Below, in pieces: positions 1,812 to 21,610 of a stretch of 25,350 nt of DNA. The translations under genes and the position numbers were made by a program. Each line of letters begins with the position of its first letter. Positions within the stretch are counted from its first letter, which is position 1. The stretch comes from a virus. Below the pieces are notes generated by a model. That model was not told where the DNA came from, ran no database searches, and worked only from the letters and a program-made list of their open reading frames with translations. The stretch is taken from IMG/VR virus record IMGVR_UViG_3300009285_005139, positions 1-25,350 of that record, one strand, 5' to 3'.

Positions 1812-2855
1812 TTAGGCATATGTAACTGTCTTGGTGATGCGTTGGGCGGCATAGCCGTCGCCGAAGGTAAGGGAAGGGGGTAGTCGGCCGTGGTTGAGTG
1901 CCCAGTTGAGGGAGGTTTGGATGGAATGGGGTGAGGTACCGGCTAGTTGGGCGTAGCCTGTGGCGATGGCTTCGGGTCGTTCGGAGTGGTTGCGGGCGAT
2001 GGTGGTGGGGATACCGAGGGTGGCAGCTTCTTCGATGGCGCCACCGGAGTCGGTGAGTAGGGCTTTAGCGGAGGCGAGGTTGACGAGGAAAGTGTGGTAG
2101 GGCATGGGTGGGCGGAGTCTGATGTTAGGGGGCAGGTTAGTGGAGTTGAGGGCGGTTTGGATGAAGGGGTTGGGGTGGATGGGCCAGGTGAAGGTGGTGC
2201 TGGGGTGTTGTTGGGCGGTTTGAGCGAGGCCGGCGAGGATATGGGCGAGTGGTGAGCCGGCGGATTCTCTGCGGTGGAGGGTGACGAGGGCGGTGTTTTG
2301 TTCGGGTTGGGGGGTGATGCCGAGGTATAGGAGGGCGTCGACGATGGTGTTGCCGGTGATTGAGGCGCTTTGGGCGAGGTGTTCGCGTTCGAGGTTGTTG
2401 AAGGCGTGTTGGGTTGGGGCGAAGTTGTAGGTAGCGAGGCGGTCTATTTCTTGACGGAAGGCTTCTTCGGGCCAGGGGTCGAGGATGTCGTAGGTACGGA
2501 GGCCGGCTTCGACGTGGGCCAGGGGCCAGTTGAGGGTATTGGCTGCGAGGGCGGCGCCGTAGGTGGATGCGGTATCGCCTTGGACGATGACGGTGTGTTG
2601 GGGTTTGCCTTTGGCCCACTGGTGGGCGAGGTGCTGGTGGAGTGAATTGGCGAAGGCGTAGGGGTCGTTTGGGTTGGGGAGGTTGAGGTGTTGCACGTGA
2701 AACTCGTTCTCGAAGCCGGTGTCTTTGAGCAGGGATGTGTGTTGGCCGGTGACGAGTATGGTGTGTCGAAGGTCGCGGCGGCAGAGTTCGCGGACAATGG
2801 GGGCGAGTTTGATGGCTTCGGGCCGGGTGCCGAGGACGATCAGGAGCGGATTCAA
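1812..2855 (-). CDS. wecB: UDP-N-acetylglucosamine 2-epimerase (non-hydrolysing)
   Basis: This 347-aa leftward gene encodes a WecB/MnaA-type enzyme, which interconverts UDP-GlcNAc and UDP-ManNAc for surface polysaccharide synthesis. Family motifs appear in order: GTRPEAIKLAP (9-19), VTGQHT (35-40), QGDTAST (92-98, catalytic-type Asp94), HVEAGLR (114-120, Glu116), PWPEEAFR (127-134, Glu130/131), ITGNTIVDAL (166-175), LHRRES (193-198, His194), TDSGGAIEEA (268-277) and SERPEA (291-296). Length is slightly short of the usual 370 or so. The likely start is a TTG at 2855-2853 with GAGGGA just upstream. It stands alone, opposite to the virion operon. Its coding strand is extremely C-rich (32 G against 5 C on the + strand in 2101-2160), unlike the virion genes, suggesting separate origin. 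Function is secure; the phage role is inferred. Confidence 0.93.
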   Translation of the reverse strand: MNPLLIVLGTRPEAIKLAPIVRELCRRDLRHTILVTGQHTSLLKDTGFENEFHVQHLNLPNPNDPYAFANSLHQHLAHQWAKGKPQHTVIVQGDTASTYGAALAANTLNWPLAHVEAGLRTYDILDPWPEEAFRQEIDRLATYNFAPTQHAFNNLEREHLAQSASITGNTIVDALLYLGITPQPEQNTALVTLHRRESAGSPLAHILAGLAQTAQQHPSTTFTWPIHPNPFIQTALNSTNLPPNIRLRPPMPYHTFLVNLASAKALLTDSGGAIEEAATLGIPTTIARNHSERPEAIATGYAQLAGTSPHSIQTSLNWALNHGRLPPSLTFGDGYAAQRITKTVTYA

Positions 2856-2936: not shown

Positions 2937-3512
2937 ATGGATGAGCCGAAGTCCTTCCTGCCCGCTGTGGTTGACGCTGGTCGCGTTATCAAACACCGTC
3001 GGCCCCGACGGATGGCGCAGTTGACCGAGTCTGAGCGGCGTATCGCGGCTACATGGGCTCGGCTGGTTGGCTTCACGGAACGTAAGCATGTGGATTACGT
3101 GATGCTGGAGTCCGAGGTTGAGCGCCGTTACGGCATCAAGGTGACCCAACCCGAACTCAAGTTCCTTTCGACTAGTCCCAGGTTCAGGCGTTACCTGACG
3201 CGGATGGTCACTAGCAGTCGCGAGGTGGTGCGCGAGCGGCTGCTGGAGTCGGCCCCGGACGCGGTGGAAGACCTGCTCTGGGCTCGGGAGACGGCGAAGG
3301 CCGAGGGTGACTACAAGGAGACGCGGCTCGCCAGTGGCCAGCACCTGGACCTAATCGGCGCGGCGGAGAAGTCTGTACCCGGCACGGTGAACGTGGTGAC
3401 CGTTGTCTTGCGTGGCCGGAACTTTGACGCCGACTCGATGGACAAGGCATTGCCCGGCATAGAGGTCACGGAAGTCAAGGTCACCGACACGCCGGAGGGT
3501 TCCGCTGGCTGA
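2937..3512 (+). CDS. terS: Putative terminase small subunit
   Basis: This 191-aa protein lies directly before the large terminase gene, the usual position of the DNA-recognition subunit. The N-terminal half contains helices suggestive of a DNA-binding region (LTESERRIAATWARLVGF and a RYGIKVTQPELKFL segment). A central helical part (about 95-145, SSREVVRERLLESAPDAVEDLL to LIGAAEK) resembles the oligomerisation helices of small terminases. The acidic, Val-rich tail could contact the large subunit. The ATG at 2937 has a modest AGG site; an internal ATG at 3012 is possible. The end overlaps the proposed CTG start of the large subunit. The call rests on position and general architecture, because small terminases vary greatly in sequence. 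Confidence 0.6.
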   Translation: MDEPKSFLPAVVDAGRVIKHRRPRRMAQLTESERRIAATWARLVGFTERKHVDYVMLESEVERRYGIKVTQPELKFLSTSPRFRRYLTRMVTSSREVVRERLLESAPDAVEDLLWARETAKAEGDYKETRLASGQHLDLIGAAEKSVPGTVNVVTVVLRGRNFDADSMDKALPGIEVTEVKVTDTPEGSAG

Positions 3513-5214
3513 ATTCACACTTGAACCCAATTCCGAGAACTGGAAGAAACAGCGCCACCGCGCGCTGACGGACTTGTTTTGGTTCTGCGACGTGGTGCTG
3601 GGTTATGGTGCGGTGGTGCCCATGAGCGTGCCAGCGCATTTCCTGCTGTGCCGCTTTGCGGAACGCAGGACTGGGTGCAAGGAGCTGGACAACGTGCATA
3701 TCCGCATGATCCAGATGCCGCGAGAGACGGGGAAGAGCACGCTGATTACTCAGGGCCTCGCGATTCAGAAGGCGTGTGCCAACCCCGATACCAGTATCCT
3801 GTTGGTCAACGAGAACATCAGTACTGCTAATGCGTTCCTGACCAGCATCAAGCGCCAGTTCGAGAGCAACGAGTACCTGAGAGCGTTGTTCCCCGAGGTG
3901 ATACCCGAGGACTTCAAGCAGACGCGCTGGTCGGAGATGGCGGCGACGCTCAAGCGCGGTACGCATCGCAAGGAACCGACGTTCTTCACGGTTGGTGTCG
4001 AGGGCACGGTCACGGGCATGCACCCGGACACCATCATCTGCGACGACATGATTAGCCGCGAGGCGATGGAGAACGCGCGGGCCGGGAACTGGACGATCAT
4101 GGAGAAGGTCAACCGCTGGGTTCACCAGCTCATGCCCATCGTGAACAAGGGTGCGGACTTCTGGGAACTCATTGTTATCGGGACCAGGTGGTGGAGAGGC
4201 GATTCATACGAGCACATCGAGGAAGGATTCGCCTACGGGGAACCGCGGCGGATGTTCAGCATGGTTGCCCGGCTGGAAGACGGGTCCACGCAACACGTCC
4301 CCGCATTCCGCCGCGGTGACATCGCGCTGTTCATCCGTTCCGCGATTGAGAACGGGGCCAGTATCTTCCCTGAGAAATGGTCGCTGGACGACTTGGCCAA
4401 GCTCCGCGTCCTAGATAGCGCGTTGTTTGCGTGCAACTACCAAAACCAGCCTAGCGATGAAGTGACCTCGGTGTTCAAATCCGAGTGGCTGCGATACTAC
4501 ACCCAGCCCGTGCGCGAGTCCTACCAGTACAAGGACAACGAAGGCAAAGACCAGTACGTCGCGCTGCCCGACCTCGACCGACTCATGGTTGTTGATCCCG
4601 CGTTTAGTGATGTGGTGAAGTCCGACCGCTCGCGAGCTGCACTGGTCGTTACCGGCACCACGTCGGGTGGCGAGCACCTGATTCTGGAAGCGGAGGCTGT
4701 GCGGGAGAGTACCGAGACGCTGATCCAGCGTGCCGTGAGCATGGTTCAGCGCTACCGGCCGAGGAAACTCTGTTGCGAGCGCATCGCGCAACAGATCGCG
4801 TTCATCATCCTGCTGCGCCAGGCGCTTGAAAAGGCTGGCTGCCCGGTACCGATGGAGGAAGTCCTGCCCTCGGGCCGGATGAAGGAACTGCGTATCCGGG
4901 GCCTCGAACCATACTTCCAGCGCGGCAGCATCTACCTGAATCGCGGTCAGCAGGCGCTGCTGGATGAGTACAAGGATTTCCCCCGTGGTCGGCACATGGA
5001 CGTGCTGGATGCCCTGGCCTACCTACCCGAGTTCTGGATGAAGCCGGGCCTCGGCTGGGGGCCGGGCCAGGGTCAGATGCAGCGCCAGAGAGTCAATGCC
5101 GAGTTGGCGGCACTGGAGGCGCGGATGGGCCGGTCAGTGCCACGGACACTGGGTATGACGATGCCGAAGGGGGAGGTTGGCAGGTTGCGCGCGGACGGTA
5201 GCCGGCGCTGGTGA
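3505..5214 (+). CDS. terL: Terminase large subunit, likely CTG start
   Basis: This is the ATP-driven DNA-packaging motor and headful/cos nuclease, docking on the portal. From the proposed CTG start (569 aa): Walker A PRETGKST at about 72-79, Walker B TIICDD at 176-181, and IGTRWW at about 225-230 as the coupling motif. The RNase H-like nuclease domain has VVDPAFS (Asp364), CCERIA (Glu425) and HMDVLDALAY (Asp499/502). The first standard start codon in frame is a TTG at 3574, with no ribosome site and cutting into the conserved LTDLFWFCDVVLGY segment. The CTG at 3505 has GGAGGG (3494-3499) 5 nt upstream and overlaps the small terminase by 8 nt; no ATG, GTG or TTG occurs in frame between the upstream stop at 3460 and 3574. 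Function is very secure; the start is an inference. Confidence 0.92.
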   Translation: MAEFTLEPNSENWKKQRHRALTDLFWFCDVVLGYGAVVPMSVPAHFLLCRFAERRTGCKELDNVHIRMIQMPRETGKSTLITQGLAIQKACANPDTSILLVNENISTANAFLTSIKRQFESNEYLRALFPEVIPEDFKQTRWSEMAATLKRGTHRKEPTFFTVGVEGTVTGMHPDTIICDDMISREAMENARAGNWTIMEKVNRWVHQLMPIVNKGADFWELIVIGTRWWRGDSYEHIEEGFAYGEPRRMFSMVARLEDGSTQHVPAFRRGDIALFIRSAIENGASIFPEKWSLDDLAKLRVLDSALFACNYQNQPSDEVTSVFKSEWLRYYTQPVRESYQYKDNEGKDQYVALPDLDRLMVVDPAFSDVVKSDRSRAALVVTGTTSGGEHLILEAEAVRESTETLIQRAVSMVQRYRPRKLCCERIAQQIAFIILLRQALEKAGCPVPMEEVLPSGRMKELRIRGLEPYFQRGSIYLNRGQQALLDEYKDFPRGRHMDVLDALAYLPEFWMKPGLGWGPGQGQMQRQRVNAELAALEARMGRSVPRTLGMTMPKGEVGRLRADGSRRW

Positions 5215-5691: not shown

Positions 5692-6135
5692 GTGTCCAAC
5701 AACACCCTCAAGTGGACAGCGCTACAGACTGCGGCGGTCATTTCCAATACCACCGCTACGGCTGCGGCAGGATATGCCACACCCGCAACAGTGTACGACA
5801 ACTCACTCGCCACCACGCTCGACCAGTACGGCTTCCTTTCACTGGACTTAGCGTCCCTGGCCGTGGCGAATCCCGGCTACGTGACATTTTTCGGTATCCC
5901 GTCCTTTGATGGCACCAACTATCCCGACGCTCCTGCGGCAACTAATCCCGCACAGGACTTGGTTGTGGGAACGGTGTCTACCGCAACGACTACGGCGGCG
6001 CATATCCTGAACTGCGGCCCGTTCAGGATATCGCCTACCAAGTACAAGTTCGCATTCCAGAACCAGTTGGGTGTGGCACTCAGTAATTCAACTAACACGC
6101 TGACGTTCCGCGCCGCGGACGACATGGTGCTCTAG
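5692..6135 (+). CDS. Putative small virion structural protein
   Basis: This 147-aa protein starts at GTG 5692 with GGGAG upstream. It is rich in Thr, Ala, Asn and Ser, without charged helices, and looks all-beta. The C-terminal part (about 95-147) has GTVSTATTTAAHILN, GPFRISPTKYKFAFQNQLG and NTLTFRAADDMV, a pattern I associate with small phage decoration or fibre-tip proteins in which a xxPxKxKFxxxN segment precedes two strands. The TAG stop overlaps the next GTG by one base. The exact role is not established by sequence. Confidence 0.6.
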   Translation: MSNNTLKWTALQTAAVISNTTATAAAGYATPATVYDNSLATTLDQYGFLSLDLASLAVANPGYVTFFGIPSFDGTNYPDAPAATNPAQDLVVGTVSTATTTAAHILNCGPFRISPTKYKFAFQNQLGVALSNSTNTLTFRAADDMVL

Positions 6136-6970
6136 TGCCGCGCGGCGTGCCGGTGATGACCGAGTCGGCGGCGCTCTCGTCGGCCGGGAACCTCACCGAT
6201 AATGTCAACGTCGGCGCAGGGACAATCTTTGCCAACATCTGCGCGAATGGCGCGACGTTCCTGTTCTGGCTCCTGGCTTCGGATACCGCCAACGCGGTGC
6301 GTGACATGTTCGGCAAGTCGCTCACGAGCGGCGGCTACGAGATGTTCAAGCGCGGCGTGGACGGGACCATCGTGCGCTTTACCCGCTATCGGACAAGTGG
6401 CCAAGTCAACATCGAGACGGCTTCGGGCGGGCTCGTTGCCAACGAATGGGCCTTCTGGGCAGTCACCGTCCAGGATGGTGTGACGGCGAACGACGCCATT
6501 TACAAAGGCACGGTCGCCAGGGCGGCGGCAACGTCACCTCCGGGACACCGACCGAAACGGGCACGGCGCCCGCGAGCGATGCGGCGATTAGCCTGCGCCT
6601 GATGTCTACGGTGACCCCCAGCTCGTCGTGGCCCGGGAAACTGGCGCCGTTCGGTCTTTTCAATCGCGTGCTCTCTCTCTCCGAGATTCAGGCGTGGCAG
6701 TTCTCCGCGCTGGACGAGCCCTATCCCGCCGTCATGGGCGGCTGCGTCGGCCTCTGGTATCCGGGCAACGATGGACCGAACAAGGTGATCGACTACAGCG
6801 GTTACCATAACGATGGCACGATCACCGGCGCGACCATAAGCCGCGGCTTGGTGTTGCCAACGCAAAACATCTGGACGCGCACCCGCCCGAGGTTCCGCAC
6901 ACCGGATGCTGCGGCTGGCGCATTCGCCGCCTACTACCGGCAGTACTATCGTGACGTGGTGGCTGCGTGA
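6135..6970 (+). pseudogene. LamG/concanavalin-like virion protein split by a -1 frameshift
   Basis: Two adjacent frames together make one LamG-like lectin-fold protein of about 279 residues. The first frame, from GTG 6135, carries GTIFANICANGATFLFWLLAS, SGGYEMFKRGVDGT and the ANEWAFWAVTVQDG strand, then leaves the fold at about 6525. The second frame, entered near 6500-6530, carries TSGTPTETGT, APFGLFNRVLSLSEIQAWQ (the typical last strand 'G.F.RALS..EI') and a C-terminal extension ending YYRQYYRDVVAA. The shift is -1, near a GGCGGCGGC run, with no standard XXXYYYZ slippery site in the zero frame. A missing base by mutation or sequencing error is most likely. It may have been a carbohydrate-binding fibre or head protein. 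The stop overlaps the next GTG. Confidence 0.65.
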
Positions 6971-12112: not shown

Positions 12113-12571
12113 ATGGGGATCGGTTTTCGGCCCGTGCGTGGTCGGTTTGACGACATCCGAGAGTTCAATACCGCCAGCGCGGCAACGTTCCAGCAGTACG
12201 CACCCGTCACGTTTGACGGTGCGCGCAATCTGATCGAGGCCACCAGCGCCTCGACGGCCATCGTAGGAATTGCCTTGTCGGGCTCCACGAGCAGCTTCCC
12301 GGCTGGCAAGGTTCAGGTTCTGATTCCGGGGCCTGACACCGTGTTCGAGTGCAAGGTGCAGACGGGCGTGGCAACGTCTGCGCTCTCCATCGGCCAAGCC
12401 TACAACATCGAGAAGGCGACCAACAACCTGCGGATTGATCCCGACTCGCAGGCATCGGCGCTGGTCGAGATAGTGGGTTTGCCGAAGGTGTCCACCGACT
12501 CCATCGTTGAGGTGCAGTTCCTGCGCAACGTCATTGGAGTCTCCAGTGTCAGTTCCATCGTGGTCTTCTAG
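12113..12571 (+). CDS. Putative head decoration protein
   Basis: This 152-aa beta-rich protein is encoded 12 nt before the major capsid gene. It includes QQYAPVTFDGARNLIEA, GIALSGSTSSFPAGKVQVLIPGPDTVFECKVQTG and PKVSTDSIVEVQFLRN, resembling small capsid stabilising proteins that project from the shell. The ATG at 12113 has GGAGG upstream. Its stop is merged with the ribosome site of the capsid gene (TAGGGAG). Decoration genes adjacent to capsid genes are common; the fold cannot be proven here. Confidence 0.6.
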   Translation: MGIGFRPVRGRFDDIREFNTASAATFQQYAPVTFDGARNLIEATSASTAIVGIALSGSTSSFPAGKVQVLIPGPDTVFECKVQTGVATSALSIGQAYNIEKATNNLRIDPDSQASALVEIVGLPKVSTDSIVEVQFLRNVIGVSSVSSIVVF

Positions 12572-17530: not shown

Positions 17531-17713
17531 ATGAAATCGCTGACCTTCGGGGTCGCGGCGCTGTTCGTTCTCCTGTCGTATGCCTGCGATTCCACAACCG
17601 CACCGACCGTCTGTCGCACGGTGGACACGCTCTGGGCCGACGCCGCCCGTCGGATACCGCTTGCCATCGTCGAGGTCGTTGCCGACTGTCGTCTGAAGGT
17701 GCGCGTTGGGTAG
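17531..17713 (+). CDS. Putative small lipoprotein or secreted protein
   Basis: The 60-aa frame has a clear export signal: MKSLTFGVAALFVLLSYACD, a Lys followed by a hydrophobic core and a Cys at 19. After it comes STTAPTVCRTVDTLWADAARR and a second Cys pair. The lipobox is imperfect (SYAC, not LxGC), so it may be a lipoprotein or simply a secreted or membrane-anchored protein. The ATG at 17531 lacks a good ribosome site; an upstream in-frame ATG at 17483 with GGGCGG would put 16 extra residues before the signal. Its TAG overlaps the glycosyltransferase start. Possible roles include superinfection exclusion or an outer spanin; none is shown. Confidence 0.5.
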   Translation: MKSLTFGVAALFVLLSYACDSTTAPTVCRTVDTLWADAARRIPLAIVEVVADCRLKVRVG

Positions 17714-19607
17714 AGTGCGGTTCGCCACCGCTCTACTGGTCAAGAACGAACTCGGACGATACCTCGCGGAAGTGCTGGATCATCACGCGAAGTTCGGCCC
17801 GCTGGTCATACTGGACGACGGCTCGACAGACGGCACATACGAGTTCTGCCGGAACCATCCCGCGACGCTGGTCTGCGAGCAACGCACAGAGCAAGAGGCG
17901 TGGGGTCGCGAATCACCGGCTCGCGCCCGGCTCTGGGACTTGGCGGCGGAACGCGCCGAGTGGGTACTGATCTGTGACGCCGACCAACTCCTCATCGGCG
18001 ATCCACTGGCGCTTTGTCAAGCCAGCCAAGTCAATGCCTGGGCTTTCGCTCTCTACGACTGTTGGAGCCCCGATAGGGTTCTCTATCGCGAGGACCGTTT
18101 TTGGCGAGGCCATCTGCATCCTCGGGCCTGGCTTTTCTGTCCACATCGCACCCCAACCGGATACATGCCTCAGTGGTCAACCCGTGGCGTACACTGTGGT
18201 CATGCCCCTGACAATTTCCCGCTTCAGGCGGGTGTAGTACATCCTGAGAGCATGCACTGGCTTCATCTGGGCTACGCTACGGAACAGGACCGAGCAGGTA
18301 AACTTGGACGCTACCGACAAGTGAGGGACCAGTTGACCGTCGAGGAACGCGCACACGCCGAGAGTATTGCCGACTCCGAACCCAACCTGCGGGTACTGCC
18401 GAGCCAGCGCACCTACACGGTTGTCGTGGGGTCCAGTGTGCGGAAGCCGCTGGACGTACTGACGGCGCATCTGGCGTCACTGGAGTCCCAACGGCTCCCC
18501 GAGCGGGTGAGCCTCAAGTACGCTTTCGTGCCCGACTATGAGAACCCGGCCGATCCGGCGTTGCCCTACCTCTCTGATTGGGTCCAGAAACGCAGTGGGG
18601 TGATACTCCAAGGCGTGCCGCCAATAGCGAACGACTTCGTGGTAGATCAGGTGACACACCACTGGACGCCGACCGCGATGAACCGGGTTGGGCAAAACAA
18701 GGACCGCATTCTCGCCTACGCGATGGCCGAGAAGGCGGACGCGATCTGGTTGGTGGACAGTGACCTTGTCGTTGACCCGATGACGCTCTGGAATCTCTGG
18801 TACGACCAGCGGGAAGTTGTCTCAGCGGTGTTCTGGACCCGGTGGCAGCGGAGCGAGAAGAAACTCCACGCCGCCCCCAATGTCTGGCTTGCCGGCGTTT
18901 ACGAGCCGTTCCAATCTGGACGGCCCGTCCGAGGGTACACGACCGAGGAGTTCCGAGCTGCGTTGGTCAACCGGACACTCACTCAGGTGTGGGGCCTTGG
19001 TGCCTGTACACTGATCCGGGCCGATGTCGTGCAGAAGGGTGTGAGTTTCCGTCGGCATCCGGCTCTGCCCTCTGGCGGGCTCTGGGACGGCGAGGATCGG
19101 CACTTCTGCGCTTGGGCCACCGCGCTACACGTCAGTCTCTGGGCTGACCCGTGGCCTGACATCTACCACGTCTACCATCCTGGAGACGAAGCGCGTATCC
19201 CGGAGGTGCAGGCGCGGTTCGCTCAGGGTCGTGGTGCGCATCCCGAGTTAGGCGACTCGATCAATGTCGCGCTCTATCCGTTGGAAGACCCAGCGATAGG
19301 GACGCATCACCTGCGGTGTAGATTGGGCGACGGGTTGTTGTTGCCTGACCTAGAGTTGCAACTACTCGCCATGCGGCTAGGCGAGCGAGCGATAGTGCCG
19401 GTGCAGTTCCCAGCACACCACGAGTTGGTGGCTTACCGGGGTCAGCAGCGGCTAATCGAGACTGTGCTGATAGATTTCAAGCCGATGGGGTTCCCGCCTG
19501 TACTGGAGGACGAGATGCTGTCGGATAGTACGCTGACCGTGGTACGTGACGCGACAACACTGAGCCGCGAACAGCACCGGAGACTAGAGGTGATGGCCGA
19601 TGACTGA
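17706..19607 (+). CDS. Two-domain glycosyltransferase
   Basis: This 633-aa protein contains two GT-A-like nucleotide-sugar-binding folds. The N-terminal one has ATALLVKNELGRYLAEVLDHH, VILDDGSTDGT (34-44) and CDADQ (DAD at 91-93), as in glycosyltransferase family 2 and related proteins. The second, from about 235, has YTVVVGSSVRKPLDVLTAHLASLESQRLPE, then AIWLVDSDLVVDP (DSD at 351-353) and a GLWDGEDRHFCAWATALH segment with likely acceptor or divalent-metal residues. The C-terminal 80 residues are beta-rich. The start is the TTG at 17706, with AAGG 6 nt upstream, or the GTG at 17715. It overlaps the lipoprotein gene and the next glycosyltransferase (8 nt). A role in building a disaccharide on virion proteins or host surface is inferred. 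Confidence 0.8.
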   Translation: MGRVRFATALLVKNELGRYLAEVLDHHAKFGPLVILDDGSTDGTYEFCRNHPATLVCEQRTEQEAWGRESPARARLWDLAAERAEWVLICDADQLLIGDPLALCQASQVNAWAFALYDCWSPDRVLYREDRFWRGHLHPRAWLFCPHRTPTGYMPQWSTRGVHCGHAPDNFPLQAGVVHPESMHWLHLGYATEQDRAGKLGRYRQVRDQLTVEERAHAESIADSEPNLRVLPSQRTYTVVVGSSVRKPLDVLTAHLASLESQRLPERVSLKYAFVPDYENPADPALPYLSDWVQKRSGVILQGVPPIANDFVVDQVTHHWTPTAMNRVGQNKDRILAYAMAEKADAIWLVDSDLVVDPMTLWNLWYDQREVVSAVFWTRWQRSEKKLHAAPNVWLAGVYEPFQSGRPVRGYTTEEFRAALVNRTLTQVWGLGACTLIRADVVQKGVSFRRHPALPSGGLWDGEDRHFCAWATALHVSLWADPWPDIYHVYHPGDEARIPEVQARFAQGRGAHPELGDSINVALYPLEDPAIGTHHLRCRLGDGLLLPDLELQLLAMRLGERAIVPVQFPAHHELVAYRGQQRLIETVLIDFKPMGFPPVLEDEMLSDSTLTVVRDATTLSREQHRRLEVMADD

Positions 19608-20430
19608 GACCGTCAATATTCCGGCGGGTATCGTGACGGTCACGACTTACGGCACGCTCCAGTTCGAGACCGTGCAGTCGCTACTCGACATGCGTTCGTA
19701 CTCCGAGAAGAACGGACTCACGAATATCGCGTGGACATTCGTGCCCGGTAGCCTCGTTGACCGGGCGCGCAACGAGGCGGCCAGGCAGTTCATCCGGGAC
19801 AAGTCGCGTGGATGGCTGTTGTTCGTGGATGGCGATGCCGTGTTCCCGCAGGATGCGCTTGAACACTTGCTGCGCTACGCCTATCACGCCGACCCGGCCT
19901 GTGACATCGTGGGTTCCTACAACCCGCTTCGTGGTGCGCCATACTTGCCGACGATTGACACCGGCACGGGGACATGGGAAAGCCACTACCCGTTCGAGGG
20001 GCCGAAAGAAGTGATACGCACGGGCTCCGCGTTCATCCTCGCCAAACGGCATGTCTACGAGCAGATGGAACCGCCTTGGTACGGCATTCGGCACCCGGCC
20101 CGCGCGATAGACGCCTTCGCCGAGTTGGACAACTTTGCGCGCCAGAAGTTCGATGGCGAGAACCCACTGGCCAAACATCCGGCGTGGACCGTGTTGCTGC
20201 GGTGCGCGAAGGATGATCCGGGTACTCAGTGCCGACCCGAACCTTCGATGTTCGTGGGCGAGGACTCCAATTTTTGTGACCGGGCGAAGTTCCTGGGCTT
20301 CAAGATTGTGGTGTTGACTGACGTGGCTTGCGGTCATGTTGACCGCAAGGTCATCACAGCCGAGGATCACAAGACCGAGATGCGGCGCTCGGATCGGCTG
20401 CGCCGGCTCGCGGTCGGGGGAACGAGGTAA
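19600..20430 (+). CDS. Glycosyltransferase, GT-A fold
   Basis: This 276-aa protein has the hallmarks of a GT2-like enzyme: TTYGTLQFETVQSLLDMRSYSEKNG at the start, FVPGSLVDRARNEAARQFI, WLLFVDGDAVFP (DGD 77-79, the metal-binding DxD), GSYNPLR, and SAFILAKRHVYEQM. A later GEDSNFCDRAKFLGFKIVVL and ACGHVDRK fit the catalytic base and metal-binding His positions seen in such proteins. It is translated together with the two-domain glycosyltransferase (8-nt overlap). The donor and acceptor are unknown; the presence of a UDP-HexNAc epimerase in the window makes UDP-sugars likely candidates. Confidence 0.75.
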   Translation: MTETVNIPAGIVTVTTYGTLQFETVQSLLDMRSYSEKNGLTNIAWTFVPGSLVDRARNEAARQFIRDKSRGWLLFVDGDAVFPQDALEHLLRYAYHADPACDIVGSYNPLRGAPYLPTIDTGTGTWESHYPFEGPKEVIRTGSAFILAKRHVYEQMEPPWYGIRHPARAIDAFAELDNFARQKFDGENPLAKHPAWTVLLRCAKDDPGTQCRPEPSMFVGEDSNFCDRAKFLGFKIVVLTDVACGHVDRKVITAEDHKTEMRRSDRLRRLAVGGTR

Positions 20431-21017: not shown

Positions 21018-21610
21018 TGATCGCGTGGGACGAAGCACTCGAACGAGATAGCGACTATCTGAGCCAGTTCCCAACGGCTCTGCGCTCGCTCAAGAGTAAT
21101 CTGGCTACGGGTCTATCTCAGAGCATGGAGTGGCCCGGCTCGGGTGGCGGGTCGTTGGCGAGCGCGGGCCAGATGAAACTCGGCACGTTCCGCGCATTCC
21201 TCGCACTACAGAGCGCGTTCAGTATCGGCAGTCCCGGCACCACGGGTCGTCTCTACGTGACCAGTGGCAATATGGCGCAGGGCGCGGGTCGGTTGTTCGC
21301 CACGGGTAGCGCGGCCACGATGTTCCTAGGCGGTGACCGTGTCATGGAGTCGGCCACGGCTATCATCGCACCGCATCGCTGGGTTCTATCGGCTGGGACC
21401 TCGGCAGGGGGTGCGGTGAGTTACGGCACGGTGTACGCGGGCATCCCCACGGTCGCGGTGAGCGTTGAAACCAGTGTGGCGTCTACCGTGTGGCCGTGTC
21501 TCAGTTCTGTGACTCAGGGTGGCTTCACCTACGACCTCGGGCCTGGGGCCATAGTTGATGATACGACCACGCTAGGCTGGGAAAGCGTGGGCACGGTGGT
21601 ATTCGGATGA
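21017..21610 (+). CDS. Tail-associated virion protein, copy 2
   Basis: This 197-aa protein starts at ATG 21017, overlapping the previous TGA by 1 nt. Its order of motifs follows copy 1: IAWDEALERDSDYLSQFPTALRSLKSNLATGLSQSM, EWPGSGGGSLASAGQMKLGTFRAFLA, a middle part with GRLYVTSGNMAQGAGRLFATGS, and a C-terminal region (AHRWVLSAG-like, TVYAGIPTVAVSVETSVAST). Only the scaffold is conserved; the loops differ, as in duplicated receptor-contact proteins. Its last codons overlap the next gene's ATG. Confidence 0.6.
   Translation: MIAWDEALERDSDYLSQFPTALRSLKSNLATGLSQSMEWPGSGGGSLASAGQMKLGTFRAFLALQSAFSIGSPGTTGRLYVTSGNMAQGAGRLFATGSAATMFLGGDRVMESATAIIAPHRWVLSAGTSAGGAVSYGTVYAGIPTVAVSVETSVASTVWPCLSSVTQGGFTYDLGPGAIVDDTTTLGWESVGTVVFG

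Follow-up and report, generated by a model that had tools for sequence, protein, structure and literature searches.

We propose that the large terminase gene (TerL) of this virus very probably initiates translation at the CTG codon at position 3505, and that this initiation is probably coupled to the stop of the gene directly upstream. The stretch of DNA analysed here (the window, 25,350 bases) is a complete virus record. A sequence-only reading of the same DNA had placed the TerL start at this CTG, an interpretation that conservation of the N-terminus and the start positions of homologous genes now support at the level of sequence. The features of the terminase region, all on the plus strand, are listed below.

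2937..3512 (+), presumed small terminase gene (TerS), 191 aa, with an ATG start and the stop TGA at 3510-3512; named from its position, its size and the presence of a homologue upstream of TerL in relatives
3494..3499 (+), Shine-Dalgarno sequence GGAGGG, separated from the CTG by 5 nt; pairing with the anti-Shine-Dalgarno sequence, -10.0 kcal/mol
3505..3507 (+), CTG, proposed TerL start codon; the only in-frame start-like codon before the conserved N-terminus, coinciding with the starts of homologues
3505..3512 (+), overlap CTGGCTGA of the upstream gene and TerL, 8 nt, as read from the sequence
3505..3573 (+), the 23 codons lost with a TTG start, which contain conserved residues 10-23 and helix 11-22
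3505..5214 (+), large terminase gene (TerL) as to be annotated, 569 aa; phrog_38, Terminase_6C, fold matches to the T4, T7 and PhiV-1 terminases
3574..3576 (+), TTG, the earliest canonical start codon in frame, not accepted as the TerL start; pairing +0.7 kcal/mol, downstream of the conserved block

The TerL reading frame is open from 3463 to 5214 and follows the ORF at 2937-3512. The protein encoded at 3505-5214 is a large terminase: it matches phrog_38 in PHROGs (E 2.6e-77, residues 17-515) and Terminase_6C in Pfam (residues 363-506, the nuclease part), so that the profile matches span both the ATPase and the nuclease parts. The best solved matches of its AlphaFold2 model (12 sequences, mean pLDDT 80) are terminases as well, and the predicted structure has their two-domain fold. 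Its parts align with the ATPase domain of T4 gp17 (Z 18.3, rmsd 3.1 over 240 residues) and with the G20c nuclease (Z 14.2, rmsd 3.3 over 158 residues); the PhiV-1 terminase is matched over the whole chain with its domains differently placed (Z 22.0, rmsd 17.4 over 429 residues).

Phage records yielded 192 matches to TerL, all distant, with less than 60% identity. As a single query, the window TerL found no relative among IMG/VR viral contigs; these were reached through a GTRWWxGDxY motif pattern, the capsid protein, and alignments or single proteins of relatives. The closer relatives obtained are 35-59% identical and all come from uncultivated IMG/VR contigs. A search of genome contigs returned one relative (L156, 25% identity), which does not point to a host. 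For a Manatee Spring phage (L002:1941-4478, MW202554.1), the annotation splits TerL in two, and a long stretch inserted midway through the terminase stands out in the alignment; it may be an intein.

The presumed TerS has no match at E 0.001 in Pfam and PHROGs, and nothing was found for it in phage records. A homologue lies upstream of TerL in three relatives, L113 (33.7% identity, E 6e-25), L119 and L139. In all three the two genes are separated by others, so the tight TerS-TerL junction of the window is not common to them. The intervening DNA holds a methyltransferase-like gene together with a small ORF (L113:1131-1990), an RlaP-family gene (L119:1201-2004) or an ORF without a Pfam match (L139:1501-1998); the interval seems to take up cassettes.

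Elsewhere in the window, the strand opposite to the terminase genes carries, beside them, a gene for UDP-N-acetylglucosamine 2-epimerase (1812-2855, minus strand; Epimerase_2, E 1.3e-66), and two glycosyltransferase-like genes stand amid structural genes (17706-19607 and 19600-20430, both plus strand). Two ORFs that overlap, 6135-6602 and 6446-6970, give the impression of a single Laminin_G_3-like gene with a frameshift near 6490, due either to a genuine mutation or to an error in the contig; the Laminin_G_3 match at 6135-6970 is sub-threshold in Pfam and covers the first half only.

The upstream in-frame stop of the TerL frame is TAG at 3460-3462. From there to the TTG at 3574 the frame contains no ATG, GTG, ATT, ATC or ATA, and no TTG before 3574; the start-like codons in 3463-3576 are CTG 3505, CTG 3565 and TTG 3574. 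Inspection of the frame thus agrees with the sequence-only reading, which had reported no ATG, GTG or TTG in this interval, and the coordinates it gave for GGAGGG 5 nt before CTG 3505 and for the 8-nt overlap with the upstream gene are exact. It was equally right that a TTG start shortens the N-terminus by 23 residues, the product being 569 aa long from CTG 3505 and 546 aa from TTG 3574. The conserved protein extends upstream of any canonical in-frame start, as in a CTG-initiated gene, and we place the start at CTG 3505 because no other in-frame start precedes the conserved block. The first residue would be formyl-methionine, and TerL would begin (M)AEFTLEPNSENWK.

Numbering residues from CTG 3505 as residue 1, 12 aligned TerLs all share W13, R17 and L24, with D23 nearly constant. 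We further compared 25 homologues with the window without gaps, sliding each by at most 2 codons to its best fit. Residues 10-23 are identical to the window in 150 of 350 residue pairs (43%); residues 24-35 in 147 of 300 (49%), a figure lowered by five to seven rows that visibly lose register beyond residue 23 (L114, L130, L133, L134, L136, L138, L141). Identity is poor over residues 1-9 (31 of 225 pairs, 14%) and over the 14 codons before the CTG (57 of 330 pairs, 17%; mean BLOSUM62 score -0.12). The difference between 43% for residues 10-23 and 17% before the CTG indicates that the frame is under selection well before the TTG and that this weakens towards the CTG. The conservation sought by the sequence-only reading in AEFTLEPNSENWKKQRHRAL is hence present in SENWKKQRHRALTD but not in the first nine residues.

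The structural model bears on the same segment. A helix is predicted at residues 11-22 with high confidence (pLDDT block means of 94-95), and a start at TTG 3574 would remove this predicted helix. Residues of the model from 1, 7 and 12 on align to the T4, PhiV-1 and T7 terminases, respectively, and the N-terminal segment can still be made out in terminases of Zobellviridae, at about 25% identity. A start at CTG 3565 was rejected: it would lose W13 and R17, and this codon is not among the CTGs pairing at -9 kcal/mol or better.

Start positions were also compared in the 25 homologues, with offsets counted in codons and the window CTG taken as 0. An ATG, GTG or TTG is found at -6 to +1 in 21 of them (19 of 23 when one member of each near-duplicate pair, L133/L134 and L170/L171, is dropped):

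ATG: L113 at -1, L129 at -6, L115 at -2, L120 at +1, L124 at -5, L136 at -1, L138 at 0, L141 at 0, L172 at -1
GTG: L139 at -1, L112 at -4, L121 at -3, L123 at 0, L130 at +1, L133 and L134 at 0, L170 and L171 at -6
TTG: L159 at -5, L119 at 0, L122 at 0

Some homologues have additional start codons further upstream (L139, GTG at -8; L141, GTG at -15 and TTG at -19), so the listed starts are candidates rather than proven ones. Homologues starting at the position of the window TTG, which the sequence-only reading had named as contrary evidence, were not seen; the 21 have their candidate starts near the CTG instead. CTG is the sole start in 0 of the 25. The four homologues outside the interval are L114, whose TerL frame is open much further upstream, L128, whose contig is cut at -14 and which has a TTG at -10, and L157 and L158. 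The 25 exclude contigs that begin within TerL (L125, L126, L127, L131, L132, L135, L137, L140) and relatives below about 30% identity (L142-L155, L162-L166, L173-L176; L173 has an ATG at -1). Three loci (L073, L074, L084) were looked at for start-like codons only, and contigs carrying two locus names were counted once (L157, L158 and L159, for example, are L118, L117 and L116).

L157 and L158, whose TerLs are 88% identical and come from two metagenomes, deserve separate mention. From the upstream stop to residue 23, their TerL frames contain no ATG, GTG, TTG or CTG (L157:2385-2500, L158:158-245); the candidate codons are GTA at -2 and ACG at +1 in both, and ATC at -4 in L158 only. As in the window, the first canonical in-frame codon of L158 is a TTG at residue 24. 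Their relative L159 offers a TTG at -5 or a CTG at -1, with weak pairing. The TAG stop of the upstream ORF overlaps the TerL frame in L157 and L158 too, and neither alignment of the junction nor Shine-Dalgarno strength singles out a TerL start codon in any of the three. Either L157 and L158 use a still weaker start beside the upstream stop, or their TerL is reached in another way; this absence of the usual starts is more curious than the CTG of the window. It is conceivable, though we consider it doubtful, that initiation outside ATG, GTG and TTG arose more than once in this branch of terminases and was selected, with CTG in the window and an ACG- or GTA-type codon beside the upstream stop in L157, L158 and perhaps L159, a weak start coupled to TerS termination setting the TerS:TerL ratio.

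The ribosome-binding site was evaluated on the assumption that the host has the common anti-Shine-Dalgarno sequence. On this assumption pairing amounts to -10.0 kcal/mol at CTG 3505 versus +0.7 at TTG 3574, and the Shine-Dalgarno sequence stands at initiation spacing from the CTG, so that GGAGGG at 3494-3499 would position ribosomes for CTG 3505. The same value is reached at 5 of the 29 scored positions of the window, CTG 3505 included (one of the 29, at 21020, was placed 3 nt off), and an ATG gene, at 12113, likewise has GGAGGG in front of it. A CTG can also be preceded by strong pairing through chance, which counts against the reading as a CTG start: 5 of the 481 plus-strand CTGs in the window reach -10.0 kcal/mol. 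One of these five is CTG 3509, the frame-shifted neighbour of CTG 3505 that shares its GGAGGG; it was discarded as a start, since it opens just 19 codons.

The start of TerL overlaps the stop of the upstream gene by 8 nt, as in termination-reinitiation pairs. Since it lies inside the last codons of TerS, initiation would probably be achieved largely by re-initiating ribosomes: those ending TerS at TGA 3510-3512 would resume at CTG 3505, held there by Shine-Dalgarno pairing, and the weak CTG codon would keep the amount of TerL below that of TerS. Short overlaps are described as overrepresented in genes for subunits of the same complex (PMC10666635), and a Shine-Dalgarno sequence as increasing re-initiation (PMC2268962). 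We infer the coupling, and the effect of the codon on the amount of TerL and on the TerS:TerL ratio, from this arrangement.

The most serious competing explanation is that the C at 3505 stems from faulty sequencing or assembly, or is a variant specific to this contig, and that the phage usually has ATG, GTG or TTG there behind the same Shine-Dalgarno sequence. A single base change would suffice, 21 of 25 homologues carry canonical codons nearby, and the apparently frameshifted gene at 6135-6970 suggests that the contig may hold another error; nothing, however, points directly to an error at 3505, and we regard this explanation as rather unlikely. A search with a junction pattern carrying N at 3505 matched three contigs (L167-L169), none of them terminase-encoding, and so yielded no second contig of this phage for comparison, although such a search may omit very near records. 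Far less probable is a start at TTG 3574 with a product of 546 aa, the result expected from gene callers limited to ATG, GTG and TTG. This TTG is the first canonical codon in frame, and several homologues have TTG or CTG at that leucine, but using it would discard the conserved W13 and R17 together with predicted helix 11-22. It also lacks Shine-Dalgarno pairing, and the starts of homologues lie far upstream of it; we therefore reject it.

Alternatively, ribosomes could shift by +1 within the overlap and produce TerL fused to the upstream protein. The TerL frame is +1 to that of the gene before it, both in the window and in L157 and L158, where a usual start is missing, and the overlap region has a Shine-Dalgarno sequence and a stop codon, elements that occur at known frameshift sites such as that of prfB. 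On inspection, however, the codons before the stop (GCT GGC TGA in the window) offer no slippable codon, barring the P-site tRNA from re-pairing one base on, and GAC CAG TAG (L157) and GAC GAC TAG (L158) are likewise unsuited. Moreover, the spacing of the Shine-Dalgarno sequence suits initiation at the CTG, and in most homologues TerL has its own start, in a frame that is not constant relative to the upstream gene. Given the unsuited codons and the homologues' own starts, we reject such a fusion as highly improbable and retain initiation at CTG 3505.

Phage trees are often built on TerL, and packaging type is commonly predicted from it. Software that accepts only ATG, GTG and TTG as starts would shorten the window TerL, and that of L158 as well. 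If CTG starts beside upstream stops are real here, there is a small class of phage gene starts that escapes automated annotation and could be found by combining homology with Shine-Dalgarno strength.

NCBI code table 11 lists CTG among the possible starts. The sequence-only reading had called such starts rare, and the figure quoted in the literature, 20 of nearly 85,000 genes, bears this out (PMC11983097); the same rarity counts against the CTG reading of TerL. Among the matches listed for literature on CTG/CUG starts in phage, and within the excerpts they offer, a phage terminase with a CTG start was not found; in the one paper matched for terminases with non-canonical starts, the excerpts contain CTG solely within oligonucleotides and inverted repeats.

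The closest parallel is the rep gene of IncFIB plasmids, which like TerL has a CTG start behind a good ribosome-binding site (PMC11983097). There the start was proven by N-terminal analysis and a CTG-to-CTC mutation, whereas for the window TerL we infer it. Database records misplace the rep start at a downstream canonical codon, by 14 codons compared with 23 in TerL; the window start overlaps an upstream gene, while the excerpted account of rep mentions no such overlap (PMC11983097). In Bacteroides phage phiB124-14, whose genome has overlapping starts and stops, ORF10 likewise has a predicted CTG start, presented in the excerpted text as a prediction without a test by homology or ribosome-binding site (PMC3338817). 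Termination-reinitiation pairs share with TerS-TerL a short overlap, membership in one complex and the aid of a Shine-Dalgarno sequence, but their commonest overlaps are 4 or 1 nt, compared with 8 nt and a CTG re-initiation codon here (PMC10666635, PMC2268962). Among phages, the window TerL joins the phrog_38 large terminases, which include those of Zobellviridae such as ICP2, CW02 and O4; the N-terminal helix before the ATPase core is conserved there, and identity to the ten distant TerLs aligned is 23-26%. ICP2 also has an 8-nt overlap between TerL and the gene ahead of it, as in the window. Altogether, CTG gene starts are of a rare but already known kind, to which this TerL very probably adds a case.
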